From Phycisphaerales bacterium (GTDB lineage Bacteria; Planctomycetota; Phycisphaerae; Phycisphaerales; UBA1924): a stretch of DNA of 64,000 nucleotides. Each line of letters starts with the position of its first letter. Within the stretch, counting starts at the first letter, position 1. The notes beneath the pieces are model-generated. The model made no database searches, was not told the origin of the DNA, and saw only the letters and a list, made by a program, of their open reading frames with translations. The translations under genes and the position numbers were made by a program. Shown in pieces: positions 47,941 to 58,922 of the stretch. The stretch is taken from the NCBI GenBank assembly GCA_029260395.1, contig JAJDDJ010000002.1:62001-126000 (forward strand), in the 5' to 3' direction.

Positions 47941-48026
47941 GGGCTCGTGGCGGAATCGGCAGACGCAGCGGACTTAAAATCCGCTTGGGGGCAACCCCAG
48001 TGAGGGTTCAAGTCCCTCCGAGCCCA
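47941..48026 (+). tRNA. tRNA-Leu (anticodon UAA)
   Basis: 86 nt cloverleaf of class II: acceptor GGGCTCG pairs with CGAGCCC and discriminator A; anticodon stem GCGGA/TCCGC encloses CTTAAAA, giving anticodon TAA; a variable arm TGGGGGCAACCCCA; T-arm GAGGG-TTCAAGT-CCCTC. CCA is not encoded. The downstream side is the insertion site of a putative island, and a tyrosine recombinase remnant reads into this gene from the other strand. Confidence 0.96.
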
Positions 48027-48520
48027 CTTGACACCTTTGCGAGCAATCTCGGCCAGCCGCACCTACTCGCGTAACTCGTGTTGTTTCAGCATCTTCCCGA
48101 TCGGGCTGCTTGGCCTTGCGAATCATCGCGGCTCCGTGCTGCGACGCATTCTTCGCCTCCAGTGAGCCGCGTTCGGCGACGCCGCCTCTCCGGCTGCCCT
48201 GGTCCTGTCCGGATCGGTGACCTGCAGCAAGTCGTGCCCGGCTGCAAGGAGCTGCGTGTTGCCCATCCAAGAGCCGCTCGTGTTGAGCGGGAAGTGCGCG
48301 GCTCGCTCTGATCGACGACTCGACCGAAGATTGTGCCACGCGCTCGGCCACGGCTTGAGCCCCGCCCTGAGAACGATCCTCCGAATCTGAGGGTTGAGAT
48401 TGCAGCCAACTCGGTAGCGACCAATCACGAACTCAGCGCCCTCCGCTGCGCTCTCGTAAGCATCCCGCATTACGCGCGATGCCCCGGCACGAGCTGGACC
48501 GCTGCTCGTGCATTCTGAAC
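47974..48520 (-). pseudogene. Decayed tyrosine recombinase (integrase) C-terminus
   Basis: One minus-strand frame (to 48123) contains SAAEGAEFVIGRYR, NLNPQIRRIVLRAGLKPWPSAWHNLRSS and SWMGNTQLLAAGHDLLQVTD, the catalytic C-terminal part of planctomycete phage integrases (R-box HNLR kept). The active-site Tyr in the usual HYLQVTD has been lost (GHDLLQVTD). The tail continues in another frame (SLEAKNASQHGAAM ... VGSEGLEPSLGLPPSGF) and its last residues are coded by the antisense strand of the tRNA-Leu gene. The N-terminal part is missing. Frameshifted and truncated, so inactive. Confidence 0.75.
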
Positions 48521-48528
48521 TTACCAAA

Positions 48529-48560
48529 GCTCCCGCCGACGCGTTGGCATCGGCGGGAGC
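48529..48560 (-). terminator. Hairpin at the end of the PEP-CTERM array
   Basis: GCTCCCGCCGA pairs with TCGGCGGGAGC around a 10-nt loop, 56 bp after the last stop of the array on the minus strand. No T-run follows, so it may stabilise the 3' end or be a Rho-type end. Confidence 0.55.
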
Positions 48561-48615
48561 ATCTCTCACTCGTACCCGAGAGTGCGTACGAGAACGAGAG
48601 AAACAGAGGGTGGAG

Positions 48616-49401
48616 TTACCGACGACGGCGGGCGGCTGCCAGGCCGCCGAAACCCAAGATCGCGGCGGACGCGGGAGTGGGAACCAGCGTCAGGTTGTCA
48701 AACGTGGCGCTGTAGTCAGCATTGCCTTGCCACGTCTGGAGGTAGGCCTGGTCGAGCTCGGTGGCGGTGGCGTAGATCGCATCGCTATCGGTGGCGACCA
48801 CGACGCCGTTGAACAGGTACTCGACGCTGGTGCCTGTGAAGCGAATGCCCAAGGTGTTGAAGACATCGAAGTTGATGGTGACAGCGGGCAGATCGAGAAT
48901 GTTCTGTCCCATCGCGCTGTCAAAGCCGTTGACAGTCGGCGAGAAAAGGGACACCTGCAGGCCGTTGCTGTCACCGTAGTTATACACACCCACGGTTGGG
49001 TACAGATCGTTGCCGATCGTTTGGGCAGGATCGTCGATGCGGGCCCACAAGTCACCGGCGAGCCTGGCCGCCGCGTCATTCCAACTCGAAGGGATGAAGA
49101 CTTCCACGGTCAGCAACGCGCCCGGGCCTGCGTTGAAGTCGCCGGCGGGTCCTGTCTGAATGCCGTGAAAGTTGTAGAAGCCGCTGGTTTGTCCGGGGGC
49201 ATCGGCCGCCGTGTTGTTGATCACCAGCACGTTGTTGTTGCCGTCATCAACGGTGAAGCCGCCCGGGTTGGCCCGGTCGATGCCGAAGTCAGCAGCCTGT
49301 GAGGCATCGTTGAAATCGGCTAGGTAGATCGGCTGCGCCGAGGCGATCTCAGCCCCGGCTACGGCAATAAGCGCGAATGCGAATAGGGTCTTGCGGTCCA
49401 T
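48616..49401 (-). CDS. Exported protein A with VPTPASA...RRRR sorting tail
   Basis: 261 aa from ATG 49401 with GGAGG 7 nt upstream. A signal peptide (LFAFALIAVAGAEIASAQ) leads to a beta-rich region (YLADFNDASQAADFG, GALLTVEVFIPSSWNDAAARL) like a jelly-roll. The C-terminus VPTPASAAILGFGGLAAARRRR is a PEP-CTERM-like tripartite signal: motif, hydrophobic helix, basic end, but with PTPASA instead of PEP. Last gene of the array. Confidence 0.8.
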   Translation of the reverse strand: MDRKTLFAFALIAVAGAEIASAQPIYLADFNDASQAADFGIDRANPGGFTVDDGNNNVLVINNTAADAPGQTSGFYNFHGIQTGPAGDFNAGPGALLTVEVFIPSSWNDAAARLAGDLWARIDDPAQTIGNDLYPTVGVYNYGDSNGLQVSLFSPTVNGFDSAMGQNILDLPAVTINFDVFNTLGIRFTGTSVEYLFNGVVVATDSDAIYATATELDQAYLQTWQGNADYSATFDNLTLVPTPASAAILGFGGLAAARRRR

Positions 49402-49637
49402 ATCCAATCCTCCAGTGTCCGGGCGTGCGAGTGAGCGGAACCGAGTTGCCCGGTGGCTCGGTTACGTTGGAAACCCGGTGCAGTCCGTTAGGCCTGCACA
49501 CGAGCGAGAGAGAGAAGAAAGAGACGGTTTTGCAAACCCCGCGCCAATGCGTTGGCATCGGCGGGAGCTCCTCTCGCTCGCAGTTGGTGCCAGGCGTGCT
49601 GGCGAATGCGGTTAGAGCGAGTGGTGGGTGGTTTGGC
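49402..49637 (-). repeat. Array intergenic module (A/B)
   Basis: One of five related 225-240 bp modules. It contains, on the minus strand, the sigma-54 promoter at 49531-49546, a GGAACCGAG...CTCGGTTAC hairpin and a GGAGG site before ATG. The 3' portion carries GCCGATGCCAACGC, as in the other copies. Confidence 0.8.
49531..49546 (-). promoter_or_regulatory. Sigma-54 promoter of protein A gene
   Basis: TGGCGCGGGGTTTGCA on the minus strand. Against TGGCACGNNNNTTGCA only one base differs, and the GG and GC doublets are spaced correctly. Confidence 0.7.
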
Positions 49638-50312
49638 TCACCGGCGACGGCGGAAGGCTGCCAGGCCGCCGAGGCCAAGCAGCGCTGCAGACGCGGAGGT
49701 TGGAACCACCACCATGTCTTGGTTGCTGCCGCTGGTCAACGCGAACAGTCCAGGGAAGCCTGCCGCAGAAATCTGGTCCACCAGGTAGATATTGGCCTTG
49801 ACCGAGACCGCGGCACTCGGCGCGTCGCTGCCATCAAGATGGAAGGTGCCCGTCGTCAGGTCGTCATTGGTGTCAAAGATCGTTTCCCAGATCGCCGCCT
49901 GTGCTCCGGCAGCCTTCGTGGCAGCGGTGTCGCCGGAGGCATCGTTCATCCACACGTTGTGAATTCGGGCGATCTTGCTCGCAAGCGAAGCACCCATCGG
50001 TGAATACGGACCGCCCGGCACCGGAGCCGTGGCGAGCGACGCACCGTCGTAGGTGTACGACCCGCCCACGCTCACGTTCTGCGTCAGTTCGATGCAGAAC
50101 GCTGTGAACGCCGGACCAGCGGGCTCTGAGAGCGTACCGCCCGTGCGTGTCCAGTTGAACACCCCAGCCTGCGTCGCAGCAAAGCCCGAGCCGCCGAGGC
50201 TCCACTTCACATCACGCTTTGGAGAGACGCTGTCCAGGGTCGCAATGATGTCTGCACTGGCGGTCAGCGTCGAACACCCAAGCGCCAAGATCGTAAACTT
50301 CATTCGGGTCAT
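49638..50312 (-). CDS. Exported protein B with VPTSASA...RRRR sorting tail
   Basis: 224 aa from ATG 50312 (ATG 50303 is an alternative), GGAGG 8 nt upstream. Signal peptide (KFTILALGCSTLTASA). The mature part (FNWTRTGGTLSEPAGPAFTAFCIELTQNVSVGGSYTY) recalls proteins with thioester or collagen-binding-like anchors, but no domain is certain. The tail is VVVPTSASAALLGLGGLAAFRRRR. The core shares no visible similarity with its neighbours. Confidence 0.8.
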   Translation of the reverse strand: MTRMKFTILALGCSTLTASADIIATLDSVSPKRDVKWSLGGSGFAATQAGVFNWTRTGGTLSEPAGPAFTAFCIELTQNVSVGGSYTYDGASLATAPVPGGPYSPMGASLASKIARIHNVWMNDASGDTAATKAAGAQAAIWETIFDTNDDLTTGTFHLDGSDAPSAAVSVKANIYLVDQISAAGFPGLFALTSGSNQDMVVVPTSASAALLGLGGLAAFRRRR

Positions 50313-50542
50313 CGGTTCGTCCTCCAACTGTGCCGAGCGTGCGAGTGAACGGAGCCGAGTTGCCCGGAGGCTCGGTTCCGTTGGAAACTCGGTGCATGCC
50401 GCTAGGCGTGCACACGAGCGAGAGAGAAGAGAGAGACTGTGTTGCAAACCCCGCGCCAACGCGGCAGCATCGGCGGGAGCTCCTCTCGCTCGCATATCAG
50501 TGTGCGAGAGAGAAACAGAGCGAGAGGAAAGAGTGGGGGCGA
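50313..50542 (-). repeat. Array intergenic module (B/C)
   Basis: Related copy with promoter at 50443-50458, hairpin arms GGAGCCGAG (50351-50359) and CTCGGTTCC (50371-50379), a GTGCATGCCGC...GTGCACAC inverted arm and a purine-rich GAGAGA tract. Confidence 0.8.
50443..50458 (-). promoter_or_regulatory. Sigma-54 promoter of protein B gene
   Basis: TGGCGCGGGGTTTGCA, one mismatch to consensus; identical to that of protein A. Confidence 0.7.
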
Positions 50543-51325
50543 TTACCGACGGCGACGGAAGGCAGCCATACCACCGAGACCGAGGATCGCAGCGGACGCG
50601 GAGGTGGGGACCAGCACGGGATTGGACACCACGTACCCCTCAGCACCGGAAACGTAGTTTGTAAGCGTATCGCCGAATACCCAGTTGAATCCGTACGCGG
50701 CGTTGGTGTTGAGATCATCGGGAGCACCAGAACCAACCGCGTTGATCGGGTTGGTGATGTATGAAGCAGAAGGTGCTTCAACAGTCAGCCCGAAGACATC
50801 GGCGAAGGTCATTGTCGCAGACGTCTTGCCGGTCGCGGTATGGACCCAGCTCGAGTCAGAGTTCCAACCGGGTGTCTCGTACACCTTAACTGGCTCGGCC
50901 GCGATGTCGCCCATGGAGAAGTCATACTGAATGCCGCCGCCACCGATACTGGTGCGGAAGGCAGCGAATGACCCGTTGGAGGGTTCGTTGGCGAGCACCG
51001 CAAAGTTGCCCAGGCCGTCGGTCACCCAAAGGTTGAAGTAGGGCGCAACGGCCGGGCCTGATCCAGCAGTGAAGCGAGTAGTGTCATCGTGTCGAGTGAT
51101 CGCCATCTGACTGATGCTGCCAACGGATGATCCATTTACAGCATCAGATCCAAGGGCACCCTTCATGCCGCCAGCGCTAATGACAAACTCGGTGCCGGTG
51201 GGCACGTAATCGGTGTTGGGCAGGATCTGGGTCCCCGCATCGCGGATGACGAAGTCGGTGAACTGGGCGTTAGCGCTGCCGGTGAGGGTGAGCATCGAGA
51301 GAGCGGTGAGGGTTACCTTGTTCAT
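50543..51325 (-). CDS. Exported protein C with VPTSASA...RRRR sorting tail
   Basis: 260 aa. The signal peptide MNKVTLTALSMLTLTG...AQ is nearly identical to those of proteins D and E. The mature core (FTDFVIRDAGTQILPNTDYVPTG, MAITRHDDTTRFTAGSGPA) is beta-rich with a repeated Gly/Ser/Asn composition and no recognised domain. The tail is VLVPTSASAAILGLGGMAAFRRRR. A GGAGG lies before the ATG. Confidence 0.8.
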   Translation of the reverse strand: MNKVTLTALSMLTLTGSANAQFTDFVIRDAGTQILPNTDYVPTGTEFVISAGGMKGALGSDAVNGSSVGSISQMAITRHDDTTRFTAGSGPAVAPYFNLWVTDGLGNFAVLANEPSNGSFAAFRTSIGGGGIQYDFSMGDIAAEPVKVYETPGWNSDSSWVHTATGKTSATMTFADVFGLTVEAPSASYITNPINAVGSGAPDDLNTNAAYGFNWVFGDTLTNYVSGAEGYVVSNPVLVPTSASAAILGLGGMAAFRRRR

Positions 51326-51552
51326 TACAGATCCTCCATGGTCCGGGCGTGCGAGTGAGCGGAACCGAGTTGCCCGGTGGCTCGGTTCCGTTGGAAACCC
51401 GGTGCACGCCGTCGGGCGTGCACACGAGCGAGAGAGAAGAGAGAGACTGTGTTGCAAACCCCGCGCCAACGCGTTGGCATCGGCGGGAGCTCCTCTCGCT
51501 CGCATATCGGTGTGCGAGAGAGAACGGGAGCGAGAGGAAAGAGTGGGGGCGG
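51326..51552 (-). repeat. Array intergenic module (C/D)
   Basis: Copy with promoter 51453-51468; hairpins GGAACCGAG/CTCGGTTCC and GTGCACGCC/GGCGTGCAC are perfect here. Between the previous stop and the promoter lies CCTCTCGCTC...GAGCGAGAGG, another stem. Confidence 0.85.
51453..51468 (-). promoter_or_regulatory. Sigma-54 promoter of protein C gene
   Basis: TGGCGCGGGGTTTGCA, same as A and B. Predicted start of transcription about 115 nt before the ATG. Confidence 0.7.
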
Positions 51553-52473
51553 TTACCGACGGCGACGGAAGGCAGCCATGCCACCGAGACCCAGGATCGC
51601 AGCGGACGCGGGGGTGGGGACGTTACTGACGACGACATTATCAAAGTAGAAACCGGCGCCAGCGTTGGCCATATTCGCAGTACCCGACTGACGGAATAGG
51701 AGCGAATCGACGGCCCTGGGGGACGTGGTGGGGACGCCACCGTCTGCCACGTTGTAGAAGAAAGATTCCCAGGTGGTGCCCGTATGTACGAGGCTCCCGT
51801 CGACCCACACTTTCATGATGTCATTGCCCATTTCCGAACCGGCAGCGCCGGGTCCGATGCCATCGACAAACTCGATCATCATCTCAACATTGTGCCAATC
51901 GGTGTAGCTCAGGCCTGTGGCAAGGGTCGACCCGTTGAAGGCGGTCCCTTCGGTGTCAAAAAACCCGACGTTGAAACCGGAACCGGTGTCTTGCATGTTG
52001 AGGTAGGACATGCGCAGCGTGCTCTGCTTGCCGCTCGCGGACACCGCCATGTTCATGCCGGGTTGAGCGGCTCCCGTAGCAGACTTGAAGTCCCACGAGG
52101 CATAGAAAAACTTGCTCCCAGCCGTTCCCGAGGACAGCGGCGGGCTGTTGGGCGAAGTGTGGTTCGTGCCGTAGTCGTTGTACAAGCCAGCGCCGGTTTG
52201 GCCTGCAATCTGAGGGGCGCTGTGCGAGAACGGCTGGTTGCTGTAGCTCGTTGCCGTGAAGCTATTCGAGATTCGCCAGACCTGGTTGCCGCTAAGGTCG
52301 ACGATCTCCTCGTCGAACAGCTCCCCGCTGTTGCCGAATGAGTCTTCGACGGTCCAGCCGCTCTGGCCGTTCACGCTTTGGTTCGCAGTGAATGATTCAA
52401 AGTCAGCCAATTGGGCGTTAGCGCTGCCGGTGAGGGCGAGCATCGAGAGAGCGGTGAGGGTTACCTTGTTCAT
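51553..52473 (-). CDS. Exported protein D with VPTPASA...RRRR sorting tail
   Basis: 306 aa. The signal peptide matches C and E. The core begins ADFESFTANQSVNGQSGWTVEDSFG and includes DWHNVEMMIEFVDG and FDNVVVSN, in the pattern of concanavalin-like (LamG-type) jelly-roll domains that often bind carbohydrates. The tail is VPTPASAAILGLGGMAAFRRRR. The core is unrelated to C and E. Confidence 0.8.
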   Translation of the reverse strand: MNKVTLTALSMLALTGSANAQLADFESFTANQSVNGQSGWTVEDSFGNSGELFDEEIVDLSGNQVWRISNSFTATSYSNQPFSHSAPQIAGQTGAGLYNDYGTNHTSPNSPPLSSGTAGSKFFYASWDFKSATGAAQPGMNMAVSASGKQSTLRMSYLNMQDTGSGFNVGFFDTEGTAFNGSTLATGLSYTDWHNVEMMIEFVDGIGPGAAGSEMGNDIMKVWVDGSLVHTGTTWESFFYNVADGGVPTTSPRAVDSLLFRQSGTANMANAGAGFYFDNVVVSNVPTPASAAILGLGGMAAFRRRR

Positions 52474-52699
52474 TACATATCCTCCAGTGCCGGGCGTGCG
52501 AGTGAGCGAAACCGAGTTGCCCGGAGGCTTGGTTCCGTTGGAAGCCCGGTGCATGCCGTTGGGCGTGCACACGAGCGAGAGAGAAGAGAGAGACTGTGTT
52601 GCAAACCCCACGCCAACACGTTGATGCCGGCGGGAGCTCCTCTCGCTCGCATATCGGTGTGCGAGAGAGAACGGGAGCGAGAGGAAGGGTGAGAGTCGA
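52474..52699 (-). repeat. Array intergenic module (D/E)
   Basis: Copy with promoter at 52600-52615. The GCC core has changed to CACGCC, so the -24 element has two mismatches, but hairpins and ribosome-binding site are kept. Confidence 0.8.
52600..52615 (-). promoter_or_regulatory. Sigma-54 promoter of protein D gene
   Basis: TGGCGTGGGGTTTGCA, two mismatches to consensus, GG and GC doublets intact. Confidence 0.6.
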
Positions 52700-53491
52700 T
52701 CAGCGGCGACGACGGACCGCAGCCAAGCCGCCGAGACCGAGGATCGCAGCAGACGCCGGAGTGGGAACCACGTTGATGTCAATCGTGGACATGCCCATGC
52801 TTGTCGTGCCGTCAAACGCTTCTAGGCTGATCGTGTACGTGCCCACGGCATCCACATCAAAGCCCGGCACAGCAGCGGGGAAGAAGGCGTAGCTCCACGA
52901 GTTCTGTGCGAGCGAGTAGGTGTCGATGTTGGTCGCGTACCCGGCAGCGTCGTTGGCACCATTCGAGATGGAAACGTCTGTGGCTGATGTGGTCGAGCTA
53001 TCGCCCATCGAGTGGTCCCACTGCACTCGGCCCAGGCCCGGATTGCTGCCGTTGATCGGATCAAAGGCACCGCCCGTAACGCTGGCAGAGGCATCGCCAT
53101 CCAAGGTCAGAACGTACGTGAAGTCATTGAGCGTGCGGCCAGGCGCCGAACCGTCGAAATCGGTGTTGATGGACCATTCGAACGACCACACCGGGGTGTT
53201 CGAGTTATCGCCAATGAACCCGAAGCCGCTGGGAGCCGCACCATTCTGGAAGGTGTATGAACCGTCCCCGTTCGAGTTAAACGTGTTCTCCGCCTGGTTG
53301 AGTGCGTTGAACCGAAGCTTGCCACGAAGGCCGATCTCGAGACCCGCAGAGCGTGAGGTGGTGAAAGACCCATTTGTGTTCCCAGAGCCGAAGATCACGT
53401 TGTTCGTGACATTCTGATCGAAGGCGACCTGAGCGTGGGCGCTACCGGTAAGAGCGAGCATCGAGAGAGCGGTGAGCGTTGCCTTGTTCAT
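52700..53491 (-). CDS. Exported protein E with VPTPASA...RRRR sorting tail
   Basis: 263 aa. Signal peptide MNKATLTALSMLALTG...AQ. The core (FDQNVTNNVIFGSGNTNGSF, LEIGLRGKLRFNALNQAENTF, VWSFEWSINTDFDGSAPGRTLNDFTYVLTLDGDASA) is beta-rich, with a different fold pattern from C and D. The tail is VVPTPASAAILGLGGLAAVRRRR. Confidence 0.8.
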   Translation of the reverse strand: MNKATLTALSMLALTGSAHAQVAFDQNVTNNVIFGSGNTNGSFTTSRSAGLEIGLRGKLRFNALNQAENTFNSNGDGSYTFQNGAAPSGFGFIGDNSNTPVWSFEWSINTDFDGSAPGRTLNDFTYVLTLDGDASASVTGGAFDPINGSNPGLGRVQWDHSMGDSSTTSATDVSISNGANDAAGYATNIDTYSLAQNSWSYAFFPAAVPGFDVDAVGTYTISLEAFDGTTSMGMSTIDINVVPTPASAAILGLGGLAAVRRRR

Positions 53492-53718
53492 TACATATCC
53501 TCCATGGTCCGGGCGTGCGAGTGAGCGGTACTGAGCTGCCCGGCGGCCCGGTTCCGTTGGAAACCCGGTGCATGCCGCTAGGCGTGCACACGAGCGAGAG
53601 AGAAGAGAGAGACTGTGTTGCAAACCCCACGCCAACGCGTTGGCATCGGCGGGAGCTCCTCTCGCTCGCATACCAGTGTGCGAGAGAGAAACAGAGCGAG
53701 AGGAAAGAGTGGGGGCGG
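53492..53718 (-). repeat. Array intergenic module (E/F)
   Basis: Copy with promoter at 53619-53634 and the same hairpins. Confidence 0.8.
53619..53634 (-). promoter_or_regulatory. Sigma-54 promoter of protein E gene
   Basis: TGGCGTGGGGTTTGCA, two mismatches to consensus. Confidence 0.6.
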
Positions 53719-54393
53719 TTACCGACGGCGACGGAGGGCGGCCACACCGCCAAGACCGATCAAGGCTGCCGATGCTGGTGCAGGTACGGTGAATGCAGCG
53801 AAGATAAAGTCCGGATCAGATGTGCCCGAGCCGCTGTCGATGTTCTCGATGTACACCGTCGAGATCGAATCACCGGCCATGAAGCCGAGCCCGAACAGAT
53901 CGAAGATCAACTGGTTCGCGTCTTCCGCCGAGCCGCCAGCGTTGTAGTTCGTCGCGGTCGCGGCCGTCGCCGGGATAAGAGCTCCGCCGTTGATGCTGAT
54001 CTGGAAACTCAAGCCTTCTGGGTCAACGAATGTCTGGCTCGATATCTCGTGGATCACGAGCTGGTTGGCAGCGGAGGACAATGTGAACGGCGTGGCGTAG
54101 TTCAGCTGCAGCCAGTCGGGAGTGGTCCTGTTATTGAGCGAGATCTGGTCGCCCGGATCGCTCCCGAACTGCCCGGCAGCGAGTTCCCCGAGCGTGAAGC
54201 CATCGACGCCCGCTGCCTGGTCCCACAGTTTGCCGTCAAAGGTAACGCCTGAGTTCACGTCGTCTCGGTACGTCACGGACGCACCGGCGAACTGACCGAG
54301 TTCATAAGTCAGTCCATTGATCGTGACTTCTTGGGCCGAGACCGAAGCGGTCACGCAGCTACCGACGAATACAAGGAGAATTGCAGCTTTCAT
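53719..54393 (-). CDS. Exported protein F with VPAPASA...RRRR sorting tail
   Basis: 224 aa from ATG 54393, with GGAGG 6 nt upstream. Signal peptide (AAILLVFVGSCVTASVSAQ) differs from those of C-E. The core (EVTINGLTYELGQFAGASVTYRDDVNSGVTFDGKLWDQAAG, IFDLFGLGFMAGDSISTVYIENIDSGSG) is beta-rich. The tail is VPAPASAALIGLGGVAALRRRR. First gene of the array on this strand. Confidence 0.8.
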   Translation of the reverse strand: MKAAILLVFVGSCVTASVSAQEVTINGLTYELGQFAGASVTYRDDVNSGVTFDGKLWDQAAGVDGFTLGELAAGQFGSDPGDQISLNNRTTPDWLQLNYATPFTLSSAANQLVIHEISSQTFVDPEGLSFQISINGGALIPATAATATNYNAGGSAEDANQLIFDLFGLGFMAGDSISTVYIENIDSGSGTSDPDFIFAAFTVPAPASAALIGLGGVAALRRRR

Positions 54394-54724
54394 ATCTTGC
54401 CTCCAAATGTGCCGAGCGAGCGAGTGTGAAGAACCGAGTTGCCCGGGAGCTCGGTTCCTTGGAAACCCGCTGCGTGCCGTTGGGCACGCGGCGAGCGAGA
54501 GAGGAGAGAGTCTGGATGTGAAGCCTGCTGAGCGGTTGTGCTCGCTCAGCAAGCGAGAGGAGATCGGAAACCCGGTGCACACCGCTAGGCATGCACGCGA
54601 GCGAGAGAGGAGAGAGAGTCGGTATGTGAAGCCTGCTGAGCGGTTGTGCTCGCTCAGCAAGCGAGAGGAGATCGGAAACCCGGTGCACGCCGCTAAGCCT
54701 GCACGCAGTGGTCAAGTGAACCTT
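54394..54724 (-). repeat. Leader region of protein F with tandem repeat units
   Basis: Contains two near-identical units of about 108 bp (about 54489-54596 and 54597-54700), each with GCTGAGC/GCTCAGC hairpin and GCGAGAGGAGATCGGAAACCC; in between are GTGCACACCGC-type arms. A sigma-54 box of the A-E kind is absent. Confidence 0.7.
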
Positions 54725-54928
54725 CTAGCCAGCGGCCGGTTCGCTACGCCTACTGCCTGGAGTAAGCCATTCAAGCAGCGTCGGCTTCTTGCCTTGGCCC
54801 GAGCACCGGCGATCGAGTTCGAGCTGCACGAGGTCACTCGCTTGACGGTTCGTCGCGTGTTCCACAGCGGTCATGAGCAGTTCTTCTGCTCGAAGTTCTT
54901 CAAGCCGCTCGCTGAATGATCTGAGCAT
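54725..54928 (-). CDS. Small protein of unknown function upstream of the array
   Basis: 67 aa from ATG 54928, with AAGGGAG 5 nt upstream, so translation is likely. Helical and charged (MLRSFSERLEELRAEELLMTAVEHATNRQASDLVQLELDRR). No cysteine pair or membrane segment except a single Cys. It may be a regulatory partner of the array, being in the same transcript as the 54951 gene. Confidence 0.5.
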   Translation of the reverse strand: MLRSFSERLEELRAEELLMTAVEHATNRQASDLVQLELDRRCSGQGKKPTLLEWLTPGSRRSEPAAG

Positions 54929-54950
54929 GTCGGCTCCCTTCACAAATCCG

Positions 54951-55370
54951 TTAGTTACATGACACTGGCAATGATCGTGCCACTTGCGACGAGGTCGTGC
55001 GAAGCCGCCTTCCAAGCGAATGCGGCGCGAGAAATCTGCTGATGAACTCCTCGGTCGTGCCGCAGAACGTGACATGCGTCCCGCTGTGTTCTGCGGCAGT
55101 AGGGTCAGGCGCAGCTCCCACGATGCAGACAACATGGTCGAGTGAGTCAAGCTGTGACATGAGTGCCGCAGCCGTGATTCCTGCGTTACTCGTGGTCGAA
55201 TCGACCACCACGGCGGATGCGTCGACTGCGATCGCTGTGCGGAGCGTGTGCGTTGTTGATGCGTTCTCGATGATCGTCCACTGGTGTTGCTGGGCTACCT
55301 GTCGCAACGCTTGGGAGCATCCTGCAGGCGCGACGACCAGCCATTCCGTTGTGCGTTGAATCTCATCCAT
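54951..55370 (-). CDS. Receiver-like or regulatory protein, sigma-54 dependent
   Basis: 139 aa from ATG 55370 (frame open from 55391, but the sigma-54 promoter overlaps that part). The fold pattern (WLVVAPAGCSQALRQVAQQ, TLRTAIAVDASAVVVDSTTSNAG, HVVCIVGAAPDPTAAEHSGTHV) resembles an alpha/beta receiver-type domain: LVVAPAG, AVVVD (Asp at the phospho position), CIVGA and TFCG strands. It lacks clear acidic pocket residues, so it is perhaps a degenerate receiver. That would fit the activator upstream, which has no receiver of its own. Confidence 0.5.
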   Translation of the reverse strand: MDEIQRTTEWLVVAPAGCSQALRQVAQQHQWTIIENASTTHTLRTAIAVDASAVVVDSTTSNAGITAAALMSQLDSLDHVVCIVGAAPDPTAAEHSGTHVTFCGTTEEFISRFLAPHSLGRRLRTTSSQVARSLPVSCN

Positions 55371-55386
55371 GATGGATGACATGCAT

Positions 55387-55402
55387 TGCAAGTGCCGTGC
55401 CA
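55387..55402 (-). promoter_or_regulatory. Perfect sigma-54 promoter
   Basis: TGGCACGGCACTTGCA on the minus strand fully matches TGGCACG-N4-TTGCA. Transcription would begin near 55376, just before the ATG at 55370. Confidence 0.75.
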
Positions 55403-55521
55403 GACATGCAGGGCCGGCGCAATGTGTGTGTTCAGGCGAAGCGGTTGCAAGATGCTACGAAGGGCTGTAGGGCCTCTCAAGAATGCTCCGGCTTGCGCCC
55501 GCAATCGGTCGTCTGCGCAAC

Positions 55522-55622
55522 GATGTCACGAGCCGGTCTCACACATTCCGCAGTGATGTCACATACAACAGCGCCGCGATGTCACACTTGTCACACTCGC
55601 ACGTAGTGGATGTCACACTTGC
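55522..55622. promoter_or_regulatory. Upstream activator sites: GATGTCAC direct repeats
   Basis: Four copies at 55522, 55555, 55578 and 55609; the last two share a 13-bp perfect core GATGTCACACTTG. They lie 120-220 bp upstream of the sigma-54 promoter at 55387-55402 and next to the activator gene, the usual place for enhancer sites. Further TCACAC half sites are in between. Confidence 0.6.
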
Positions 55623-55700: not shown

Positions 55701-56621
55701 TTACGGAGTTGCGTTCTCTAGGAGCCGATAGAGGTGCCGGCGGCTCACACCCAGCCTGCGAGCCGCCTCGGATTTGTTCCCGCAGGCGTTCTCAACTTCG
55801 TCCGCGATCCGTCCTAGCGTCAGCCGGGACGGCCGGGGGGCTGATTGAGTCGCGGCAAGCCCCGCGAGTACCCGCGGGGGCAACGCTGATAGCTCCAACT
55901 CCGGCCCTCGCGAAAGGACCAGGGTGCGCTCGATGCAGTTTCCTAGTTCACGGATGTTGCCGGGCCAGTCGTACCGCATGAACGCTTCCATGAGCTCAGC
56001 CGACGGGTTGCGGGCTGGCAATCCCAGCAACTCCGCCTTCTTGACGATCAGGGCCTCGATCAACTCCGGGAGATCCTTCTTGCGGTCCCGCAGAGCAGGC
56101 ACATCGAGTTCCACAACCGCCAGGCGGTAGTAAAGATCCTCCCGAAAGGTCCCGGCTTCGACCATCGCTGGCAAGTCCCGGTGGGTCGCAGCGATAAATC
56201 GGACGTCCACAGCGTGCCGGCGCTCGCTGCCAACCGGCATGACCGTGCGATCTTCGAGGAGCGTCAGCAGCATGGCCTGCTGCTCCGCTGCAAGCTCTCC
56301 TACTTCGTCCAGAAACAGCGTGCCGCCTTCTGCCGCGCGGACCAGGCCGGACCGCTCTGCCGATGCCCCGGTAAACGCTCCTTTGGTGTGACCAAAGAGC
56401 TGTGATTCGAACAGGGAAGCGGTTAGCGAAGAGCAATCGGCAACCACGAATGGCTTTCGGCTGCGCCTGCTGACTGCGTGAAGGCGGCGCGCGTACACGC
56501 CTTTGCCCGAACCGGTCTCCCCGCCGATGAGCACGGTGACATCACTACCCGCCAAAGCTGTCTCGTCCCAAGTGGGCGCACTGCTCACGCCGATTCTGGT
56601 CGCGACCGATGCAACAGACAT
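55701..56621 (-). CDS. Sigma-54-dependent transcriptional activator without receiver domain
   Basis: 306 aa. Starts almost directly with the AAA+ domain: Walker [10 protein letters not shown] (about residues 33-41), the sigma-54 contact loop KGAFTGAS, Walker [10 protein letters not shown], the sensor and Arg-finger region [30 protein letters not shown]. The C-terminus is a Fis-type HTH ([32 protein letters not shown]). No N-terminal receiver or GAF domain, so activity must be set by amount or by a partner. Resembles PrsR-type regulators of PEP-CTERM clusters. GAGGAG lies directly upstream of the ATG. Confidence 0.88.
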
Positions 56622-57525: not shown

Positions 57526-58512
57526 TTACGGGCAGGGCCCGATCAGGCCGAGCAGGGCGAGGAAGTCGCCGAAGCTCACCATGCCGTCGCCGCCAAGGTT
57601 GCCAAAGTCATCGGCGATGTCGCCGGTGCAGCCGGGCGTGCCGCCTGGGCAAGGTCCGATGAGGCCGAGCAGGGCGAGGAAGTCGCCGAAGCTCACCATG
57701 CCGTCAGCGCCGATGTTGCCAAAGTCGTCGGCGATGTCGCCCGTGCAGGAGCCGGTGTCGCCTGCGAGCCACGGGGCGTAGGCACCTGCCGAGAAGAGCT
57801 CAGCCGTGGTGAACGGGGAGGCGATGGAAGCCTCGTAGCCCTCAACAAAGTCGTAGACGTGGATGGTGTCGCCAGCCTCGTCCTCGATCAGGTACGCCTT
57901 GCCGCCGCCGACGGCGAGCCCGTCGATGTCGGTGCGGCCCGCGGGGTACGGCGTGATAAGCGTGATGGTGCCGTTGAGCTCGATCTGGTACAGACCACTG
58001 CCAAACGGCGTAGCGTCGTCGTTCGTCCCGTAGAACTGGCCGTTGTCGGCATCCAAGCCGCCAAAGTCGTAGTCAGCGGACGTGTAGTCGAGCAAGAGCG
58101 TGGCCTCACCGGTCACCGGGTTGACGCTGTACAGGCCCTCGGGAGACACGCCGCCATCGCCGCCGATGTTACGGGTGGCGTAGAGCGTGCCCTCGTCGTA
58201 TGCCAGGGAGACCGGCGAGGCGAGCGATCCGGCGATAGTGATGCTGCCTACGAGCGTGGGCGTGCCTGTGCCGTCCCAGCTGTAGAGCTGCGAGCCCGAG
58301 CTGATGTACAGGATCTCGTTGTCGTTGTCCGAGGCCATGCCCCAGACATCGATGTCGCTGAACAGCGGGGTGGCGACATTGGAGCCGTCGGAAACGCGCA
58401 CCTCATAAGCGGTGGTGACGCCAGCGGTGGTGTCGTCGAACGCGACGATGAGCTGGGCGTTGGCGGCGGACGCGGCCAAGCCAGCTGCGGCAAGCAGTGC
58501 AATCTTCTTCAT
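57526..58512 (-). CDS. Secreted protein with two GC-type dockerin repeats
   Basis: 328 aa from ATG 58512 with GAAAGG upstream. Signal peptide (KKIALLAAAGLAASAANAQ). The middle is a beta-propeller-like domain (VWGMASDNDNEILYISSGSQLYSWDG, LYSVNPVTGEATLLLDY). The C-terminus has two almost identical units with CTGDIADDFGN and DGMVSFGDFLALLGLIGPCP, the GC-type dockerin of planctomycetes, framed by Cys and able to bind calcium. Two copies, separated by GGTPG, suggest recent duplication. Confidence 0.85.
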   Translation of the reverse strand: MKKIALLAAAGLAASAANAQLIVAFDDTTAGVTTAYEVRVSDGSNVATPLFSDIDVWGMASDNDNEILYISSGSQLYSWDGTGTPTLVGSITIAGSLASPVSLAYDEGTLYATRNIGGDGGVSPEGLYSVNPVTGEATLLLDYTSADYDFGGLDADNGQFYGTNDDATPFGSGLYQIELNGTITLITPYPAGRTDIDGLAVGGGKAYLIEDEAGDTIHVYDFVEGYEASIASPFTTAELFSAGAYAPWLAGDTGSCTGDIADDFGNIGADGMVSFGDFLALLGLIGPCPGGTPGCTGDIADDFGNLGGDGMVSFGDFLALLGLIGPCP

Positions 58513-58922
58513 GGAAATAACCTTTCTCTCACGGATCAAAACAGATCAAACACAATCCGAGGGCCACGAAACTGGGGAGATCCCTGGGTACTGAGTCCGA
58601 GGTACGCAGCATCGGCTGCGTGAAGAGGGTCGTGGCCTCCTACTTGTCGCTGAGTGTACTGGCTCGGCGGTTCCAAGCAAGCCGAAAGAAATTGGCAAAA
58701 ACCATGCATTTATCAGCCGCCGTCGCGCGCTGGCCACAGCTCCCAGCAACGGAAACCGAACGCACTCCGTAGATTTACCAACGGGTTTCGATACGCCACT
58801 AGAGGCGCGCGCTTCGAGCTTCGCGATTCCATCAAGCCAGCGCGCGATCCGCTCGGTTCAAACTCGTAGCTTGGCCCTCGCTCGCGCTTCCCCGCGCACG
58901 AATTGAAAGCCCGGAGCAACCG
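58513..58922. other. Intergenic region with possible promoter
   Basis: 410 bp without a convincing gene. On the minus strand a TTGCTT-N16-TACACT pair (58653-58680) may drive the dockerin gene; support is weak. Confidence 0.35.

Follow-up and report, generated by a model that had tools for sequence, protein, structure and literature searches.

We describe here a tandem array of six genes, together with the regulatory region that precedes it, in a stretch of 64,000 nucleotides (nt) that we refer to throughout as the window (C2:62001-126000 of the 3.22-Mb draft genome of a Phycisphaerales bacterium). The genes lie on the minus strand, as do all of the features described below unless another strand is given, and in their reading order, F to A, they occupy positions 54393 to 48616 of the window. 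A first-pass annotation made from the sequence of the window had singled them out as six exported proteins encoded in tandem, and the gene coordinates, the signal-peptide-like starts and the sorting-type tails of the products all bear out that description. The array is nonetheless part of a larger locus, the remainder of which lies directly upstream of gene F and consists of a gene for a short sigma-54 activator, a set of repeats, a perfect sigma-54 promoter and a gene for a small receiver-like protein. We read the whole as a locus dedicated to PEP-CTERM-type surface proteins, in which the cargo genes are joined to a sigma-54 control of their own, an interpretation drawn from sequence comparisons to which we assign a probability of about 0.62.

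The regulatory head and its recurrence in relatives

The first component of the locus in reading order is an activator of 306 amino acids (aa) encoded at 55701-56621, which combines an AAA+ domain (Pfam Sigma54_activat, PF00158, E-value 4.8e-60, residues 22-172) with a Fis-type helix-turn-helix (HTH_8, PF02954, E-value 1.4e-5, over the cut-off) and has a GAFTGA loop that can be read in the translation; these are the features that define a sigma-54 enhancer-binding protein. No receiver domain was found in it by the Pfam search, and its score of 244 bits against the PrsR model TIGR02915 falls below the cut-off of 502.6. The closest match among 100 other genomes, in G022, is 65% identical and is also short, and in named genomes the activator search yielded 80 loci with a best identity of 48%. 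Downstream of the activator gene lie TGTGACATC-type repeats (55518-55621; repeats D4, D7 and D8 and pattern matches), which are putative activator sites positioned ~125-215 nt upstream of the sigma-54 promoter TGGCACGGCACTTGCA (55387-55402), the sole exact match to the consensus in the genome. These are followed by the receiver-like protein of 139 aa (54951-55370), a second sigma-54-like site with one mismatch, TGGCACGATCATTGCC (54967-54982), and the 67-aa open reading frame (ORF) that we call ORF2 (54725-54928), for which a comparison of four sequences identified a relative in G106 (37% over 51 aa, E-value 4e-9). The genome encodes one RpoN. Sites with at most one mismatch to the sigma-54 consensus number 37 genome-wide, as compared to 40 for a reversed control pattern, and at that scale such matches are noise; the local cluster, with five sites on the minus strand of 49531-55402, is not. 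A search for sigma-70-type promoters found one, against 1.6 expected.

As a single query the receiver-like protein retrieved no relative from named genomes, and a structure model built from its one sequence was too poor (predicted local distance difference test, pLDDT, 48) for a structure search. Its similarity to the receiver fold emerges from alignment A3, which places it beside six homologues encoded directly downstream of activators and whose profile matches response-regulator receivers in PDB with a best E-value of 1e-6. One member of the family scores 14.3 bits against Pfam Response_reg (cut-off 30.2), and the phosphorylation residues (the acidic pair, Asp and Lys) are not conserved across the seven rows of the alignment.

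The order of activator, promoter and receiver-like protein recurs in relatives. In six of 13 activator loci (L089, L091, L092, L093, L094 and L097), the gene immediately downstream encodes a homologue of the small protein. At an E-value of 0.01 or better the A3 profile has matches in 322 of 400 genomes from the order, because ordinary receivers match as well, and recurrence was judged on the best 16 matches outside the training set, down to an E-value of 2e-10, a limit that we chose ourselves. Within 250 nt upstream of these genes, a sigma-54-like site with up to two mismatches is present in 10 of the 16 cases, and in nine at one mismatch or fewer, for which the expected frequencies per 280-nt single-strand stretch are 0.016 and 0.007, respectively; seven of the 16 are preceded on the same strand by a short activator gene (frames of 317-417 codons), and six have PEP-CTERM-type genes downstream. 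Over all 24 receiver-protein loci, the window included, the site occurs in 17, the short activator in 14 and downstream PEP-CTERM-type genes in 12, a count that excludes the false rows produced by the loose pattern of the C-terminal-tail scan (e.g., L091, and L090 with a match 8 kb away).

The repeats upstream of the promoter differ when raw occurrences are compared across 11 loci. Several TGTGACAT-type motifs lie 100-216 nt upstream of the promoter in the window, G106 and G256, and two such motifs precede the promoter in G022; GGTAC/GTACC motifs are found upstream in G269, G081, G048 and G069, and neither kind is clear in G032, G321 and G282. The same difference in the putative activator-site motif (TGTGACAT versus GGTAC/GTACC) runs through the receiver-protein loci L140, L149, L146, L093, L091, L092 and the window, as if motif and activator had changed in step. 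Sigma-54 control of the locus can be considered well supported at the level of sequence, because an activator gene adjoins putative activator-site repeats and a perfect promoter in an order that recurs in relatives.

Cargo genes and the sites between them

The six cargo genes are F (53719-54393), E (52700-53491), D (51553-52473), C (50543-51325), B (49638-50312) and A (48616-49401). Each product begins in the manner of a signal peptide and ends in a PxxASAAxxGxGG...RRRR-type tail, and the genome has one clear exosortase gene (PF09721, 138 bits). In a genome scan with TIGR02595 (16-bit cut-off), the tails of F, D and E score over the curated cut-off and those of A, B and C under it, and we therefore speak of PEP-CTERM-type genes. 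The central portions of the six products, their passengers, show no similarity to one another (best E-value 0.11). Around them, a shell formed by the non-coding modules and the terminal parts of the coding sequences is similar among the copies within the genome; C and D, for example, are 92.7% identical over 288 nt that extend through the signal peptide and 93.6% identical over 172 nt at the 3' end.

Across genera, a comparison of 27 such genes from 12 loci yielded relatives for four of the six passengers in the arrays of other genera: A in G269 (34%, E-value 5e-19), B in G032 (44%, E-value 1e-36), C in G256 (63%, E-value 8e-92) and D in G077 (35%, E-value 2e-37). No relative of E or F was found in that set. 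Passenger B also matches the thioester domain TED (PF08341, 25.8 bits against a Pfam cut-off of 22), which points to a covalent adhesin. In G081 (L093), the final 72 nt of coding sequence are 99-100% identical among three unrelated PEP-CTERM-type passengers, as though these tails had been homogenised within the genome. When the final 72 nt were compared without gaps, so that shifts distort some of the pairs, the mean was 0.65 for 28 within-genome pairs versus 0.43 for 323 between-genome pairs. These patterns may be read as old cargo inside shells that are homogenised within one genome, and passengers kept across genera in such shells offer a testable case of concerted evolution. Just past the end of the array is a tRNA-Leu gene (anticodon taa; 47941-48027, plus strand), and at 57526-58539 of the window is an exported protein with two near-identical C-terminal repeats that appear dockerin-like by eye.

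The spacers before A to E are alike (mean column identity 88%), and the first-pass annotation had assigned them a shared sigma-54 promoter. The sequence in question, TGGCGYGGGGTTTGCA, does occur exactly five times in the genome, each time before one of these genes, but it doubles as the 3' arm and T run of a terminator-like hairpin that belongs to the gene before. Downstream of each cargo gene of the window lie two hairpins with homologues in G106 and G022, and in the spacers before A to E the second of them has TTGGCGYGGGGTTTGCA as its 3' arm and T run. The sigma-54-like sites formed in this way have the -24 GG and -12 GC at the correct spacing and agree with the consensus at 10 of 12 positions before E (TGGCGTGGGGTTTGCA, 53619-53634) and before D (TGGCGTGGGGTTTGCA, 52600-52615) and at 11 of 12 before C (TGGCGCGGGGTTTGCA, 51453-51468), B (50443-50458) and A (49531-49546). 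The double hairpin after A (48529-48599), where no cargo gene follows, has a perfect 14-bp stem and TTT in its second hairpin and no sigma-54 match, with eight of 12 consensus positions. The view that the A-E form is closer to the consensus at each of the four positions where it departs from the form after A failed on recount against these values.

Whether the internal sites are active promoters is, in our estimation from these alignments, a matter of about even odds. The most substantial alternative, which we place somewhat below even odds, is one long operon, transcribed from the pair of sigma-54 sites upstream with read-through of weak terminators, in which the internal sites would be terminator arms with a conserved tail and the hairpins would serve as intercistronic processing sites. 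It is favoured by the spacers of relatives: homologous double hairpins in G106 and G022 have no sigma-54 match, a similar tail, TTTACAACAC, occurs in G256, and the match is missing from the relatives' homologous spacers, the internal sites having been seen in the window genome only. No TGTGACATC repeats were found near the internal sites of A to E, and no sigma-54 site lies directly before the F leader. Conservation of the 16-mer speaks on both sides of the question. Only one of its 16 columns varies, versus eight of 11 in the facing inner arm (Fisher P 0.0006), which counts against the long operon, and yet among 214 windows of 16 columns 33 show equal conservation. The long operon also leaves the five correctly spaced copies to be explained, with their 10 or 11 consensus positions as compared to eight after A, in the neighbourhood of an activator gene and an exact promoter.

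The leader units

A leader precedes every gene of the array. The first-pass annotation had described leader modules for A to E, each with two hairpins and a GAGAGA purine tract; those modules are present, and F has a leader as well, built of tandem units. The purine tract is, on the coding strand, a pyrimidine tract, and it belongs to a conserved unit of which the first hairpin, GTGCACGCC (HP1), is one instance: a pyrimidine tract, CTCG, a stem-loop of 30-32 nt in total with a stem of ~12 bp, CGGG, one base and TT. As delimited by a model of the unit (R2), the HP1 units lie at 53558-53616 (before E), 52539-52597 (D), 51392-51450 (C), 50382-50440 (B) and 49468-49526 (A). The leader of F (54394-54724) contains a 108-bp repeat in 2.0 copies, with R2 matches at 54460-54517, 54565-54623 and 54626-54683 and a half unit at 54518-54563. 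Of the two hairpins that had been proposed, both are fully paired only in C, where the intact second hairpin (HP2) is inverted repeat I20 at 51360-51390; in A, B, D and E, HP1 has a mismatch and HP2 at least one.

Leader units of this kind occur in six genera of one family, often in tandem. Two or three tandem R2 units precede the first cargo gene in G022, G106, G256 and G269 (up to four by eye in G106), and two or three precede a 50-codon ORF in G025. In an alignment of 19 units from the six genera (A4, with the unit of B added by hand), nine of 13 pairs have changes on both sides while pairing is kept; 88.3% of the cells pair, versus 75.7% in shuffles, and the covariation value is 0.380 versus 0.170, with none of 500 shuffles as high. 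When the alignment is slid, the paired fraction drops to 23-46%. The units outside the window had been chosen by a hairpin scan, so that part of this pairing is built in, which counts against taking A4 at face value, and given that selection the search with R2 is the better check. Over 30 sources and 528,571 bases, the 23 matches at an E-value of 1e-5 or better are all confined to these leaders and to spacers that precede cargo genes; four of the 23 are outside the training set (L149:10762, L146:10301, window:54626 and L149:9656), and the unit of L146 lies before a second PEP-CTERM-type gene. Among 101 genomes, 13 have matches at an E-value of 0.01 or better, and the nine matches in the genome of the window are all inside the array. 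In that genome a model of the whole leader (R1) finds only the array, plus one match at an E-value of 9; elsewhere it is weak (G016 and G025), being strong in the window array alone, and R2 was used in its place. The covariation that the first-pass annotation had called for thus exists for HP1, with compensatory changes in six genera; HP2 was rejected as a conserved structure, since in the six window leaders none of its pairs has changed at both positions.

Single R2 units are also found between other genes in G040 and G054, the former (L153, at 1545 in its contig) between a gene that appears by eye to be of phage capsid type and the next gene, and one unit follows a PEP-CTERM-type gene in G053. 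With the weaker model R1, single units were seen between a capsid-like gene (by eye) and the next gene in L035 (G016) and L043 (G067). The units at G040, G054 and G053 would suit the view that all are ordinary intrinsic terminators or attenuators of this bacterial family that lie in the spacers by chance, which we consider unlikely. Just two or three T follow the stem, a terminator scan of the region reported none of the units (three sites, versus 4.8 in shuffles), and the confinement of the nine own-genome matches to the array is unlike the distribution of a general terminator; the short T run and the scan argue against a strong terminator in particular. Less likely still are palindromes that act as DNA sites for a regulator, e.g., the activator, rather than as RNA structures. 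Inverted repeats near promoters are typical of activator sites and F has several, but the stem differs in sequence both among genomes and inside single ones without loss of pairing, a pattern that a protein reading the sequence would not favour, and the exact promoter is preceded by repeats of a different type. Recent tandem duplication that left near-identical modules and a fold with no function, to which the 88% identity and the weak covariation inside the window alone (two pairs) might be ascribed, is very improbable given units of other sequence at the equivalent place in five further genera.

In the six window leaders, the predicted probability that the ribosome-binding site is paired is 0.94-0.98. 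In a test that set the start of the A-E leaders at the predicted +1, this pairing was within the values of shuffled leaders in 10 of 10 leaders (at the lowest, eight of 100 shuffles were as high); on these grounds masking of the ribosome site is not supported as a function, and the odds for a translational gate are lowered accordingly.

How the locus may work, and its likeness to known systems

In the scheme that we favour, that of a dedicated sigma-54 control and cargo locus, the activator would bind the TGTGACATC repeats and open the sigma-54 promoter, and the receiver-like protein would tune either the activator or the RNA. Genes A to E may each have their own sigma-54 start, arisen inside the terminator of the preceding gene, in which case their RNAs would begin within the pyrimidine tract; the overlap of terminator and promoter suggests a route by which a tandem array could gain separate promoters. 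The cargo products would be exported and handled by the one clear exosortase. The weakest step concerns the leader units, which we tentatively propose to fix where each cargo message begins and ends and how long it lasts. This is the most likely of their roles because the cargo genes of the window are bracketed by one or more leader units and a 3' double hairpin; attenuation of transcription appears unlikely, and the binding of a protein or small RNA that controls translation slightly more so. The first-pass suggestion that promoters and leaders together regulate the array is thus sustained as regards sigma-54 control of the locus, with the five internal promoters being plausible and a post-transcriptional action conjectural. 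A bolder and rather improbable version is a split switch, in which the receiver-less activator would start transcription and the receiver-like protein or ORF2 would bind the tandem RNA units and so set the amount of cargo, and in which, in the window genome, cargo promoters would have been gained by conversion of the preceding gene's terminator, a single short sequence then serving as the end of one gene and the start of the following one.

Several observations weigh against the dedicated-locus interpretation as a whole. The tails of three of the six genes score below the curated PEP-CTERM cut-off. Among the 24 receiver-protein loci, 10 have no same-strand activator gene in the stretch, seven have no site and 12 have no cargo: L134, L137, L139, L143, L147 and L148 have neither activator gene nor site, L090 has its activator on the opposite strand, L135, L136 and L144 have the site with no activator gene, and L097 has no site under our rule. 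Loci L091-L094 and L097 have the activator and the receiver protein and no convincing leader unit by R2.

VpsR, an activator with an atypical receiver and a role in cyclic di-GMP (c-di-GMP) signalling and biofilms, resembles the head of this locus in pairing a receiver-like part with a sigma-54-type activator, and one member of the receiver-like family (G069) has a sub-threshold match to the VpsR domain (20.8 bits, cut-off 23.7); here the two parts are separate proteins, if they work together at all. The leader is comparable to Rfam families in being a leader RNA element and differs from them in that no family of Rfam 15 matches it, apart from one match at chance level (21.6 bits versus 70, on the opposite strand). 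We found no account of this arrangement or leader in the open-licence papers searched, which is not proof of absence. The terms exosortase, sorting and exopolysaccharide do not occur in the extracts consulted of a sigma-54 regulon survey that covers planctomycetes (PMC12316311), which cite earlier work on the sigma-54 regulon of Pirellula.

A further parallel is pepA of Aquincola tertiaricarbonis, whose dependence on RpoN1 was shown by primer extension and with an rpoN1 mutant (PMC9850573). It is a sigma-54-dependent PEP-CTERM gene, as we propose for the genes of this locus; it differs in being a single gene in another phylum, with no tandem array or leader units described in the extracts of that paper. 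A regulatory counterpart is the control of PEP-CTERM genes by sigma-54 through PrsK and PrsR, predicted in Proteobacteria by Haft and colleagues in 2006 (PMC1569441), with motifs that, according to the extracts consulted, were common only to the Proteobacteria among their species. The PrsK-PrsR-RpoN system and the locus described here have in common a -24/-12 site, a putative activator site and an activator tied to PEP-CTERM genes with long upstream regions. They differ in that PrsR has a receiver and a kinase partner, whereas the activator of the window has no receiver, no kinase gene was found beside it and a stand-alone receiver-like protein is present instead. The same authors wrote that further PEP-CTERM regulators and DNA motifs were still to be discovered, both within and outside the Proteobacteria (PMC1569441). 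With its receiver-less activator, stand-alone receiver-like protein, leader element with no Rfam family and defined cargo set, this locus is a concrete candidate for such regulation.

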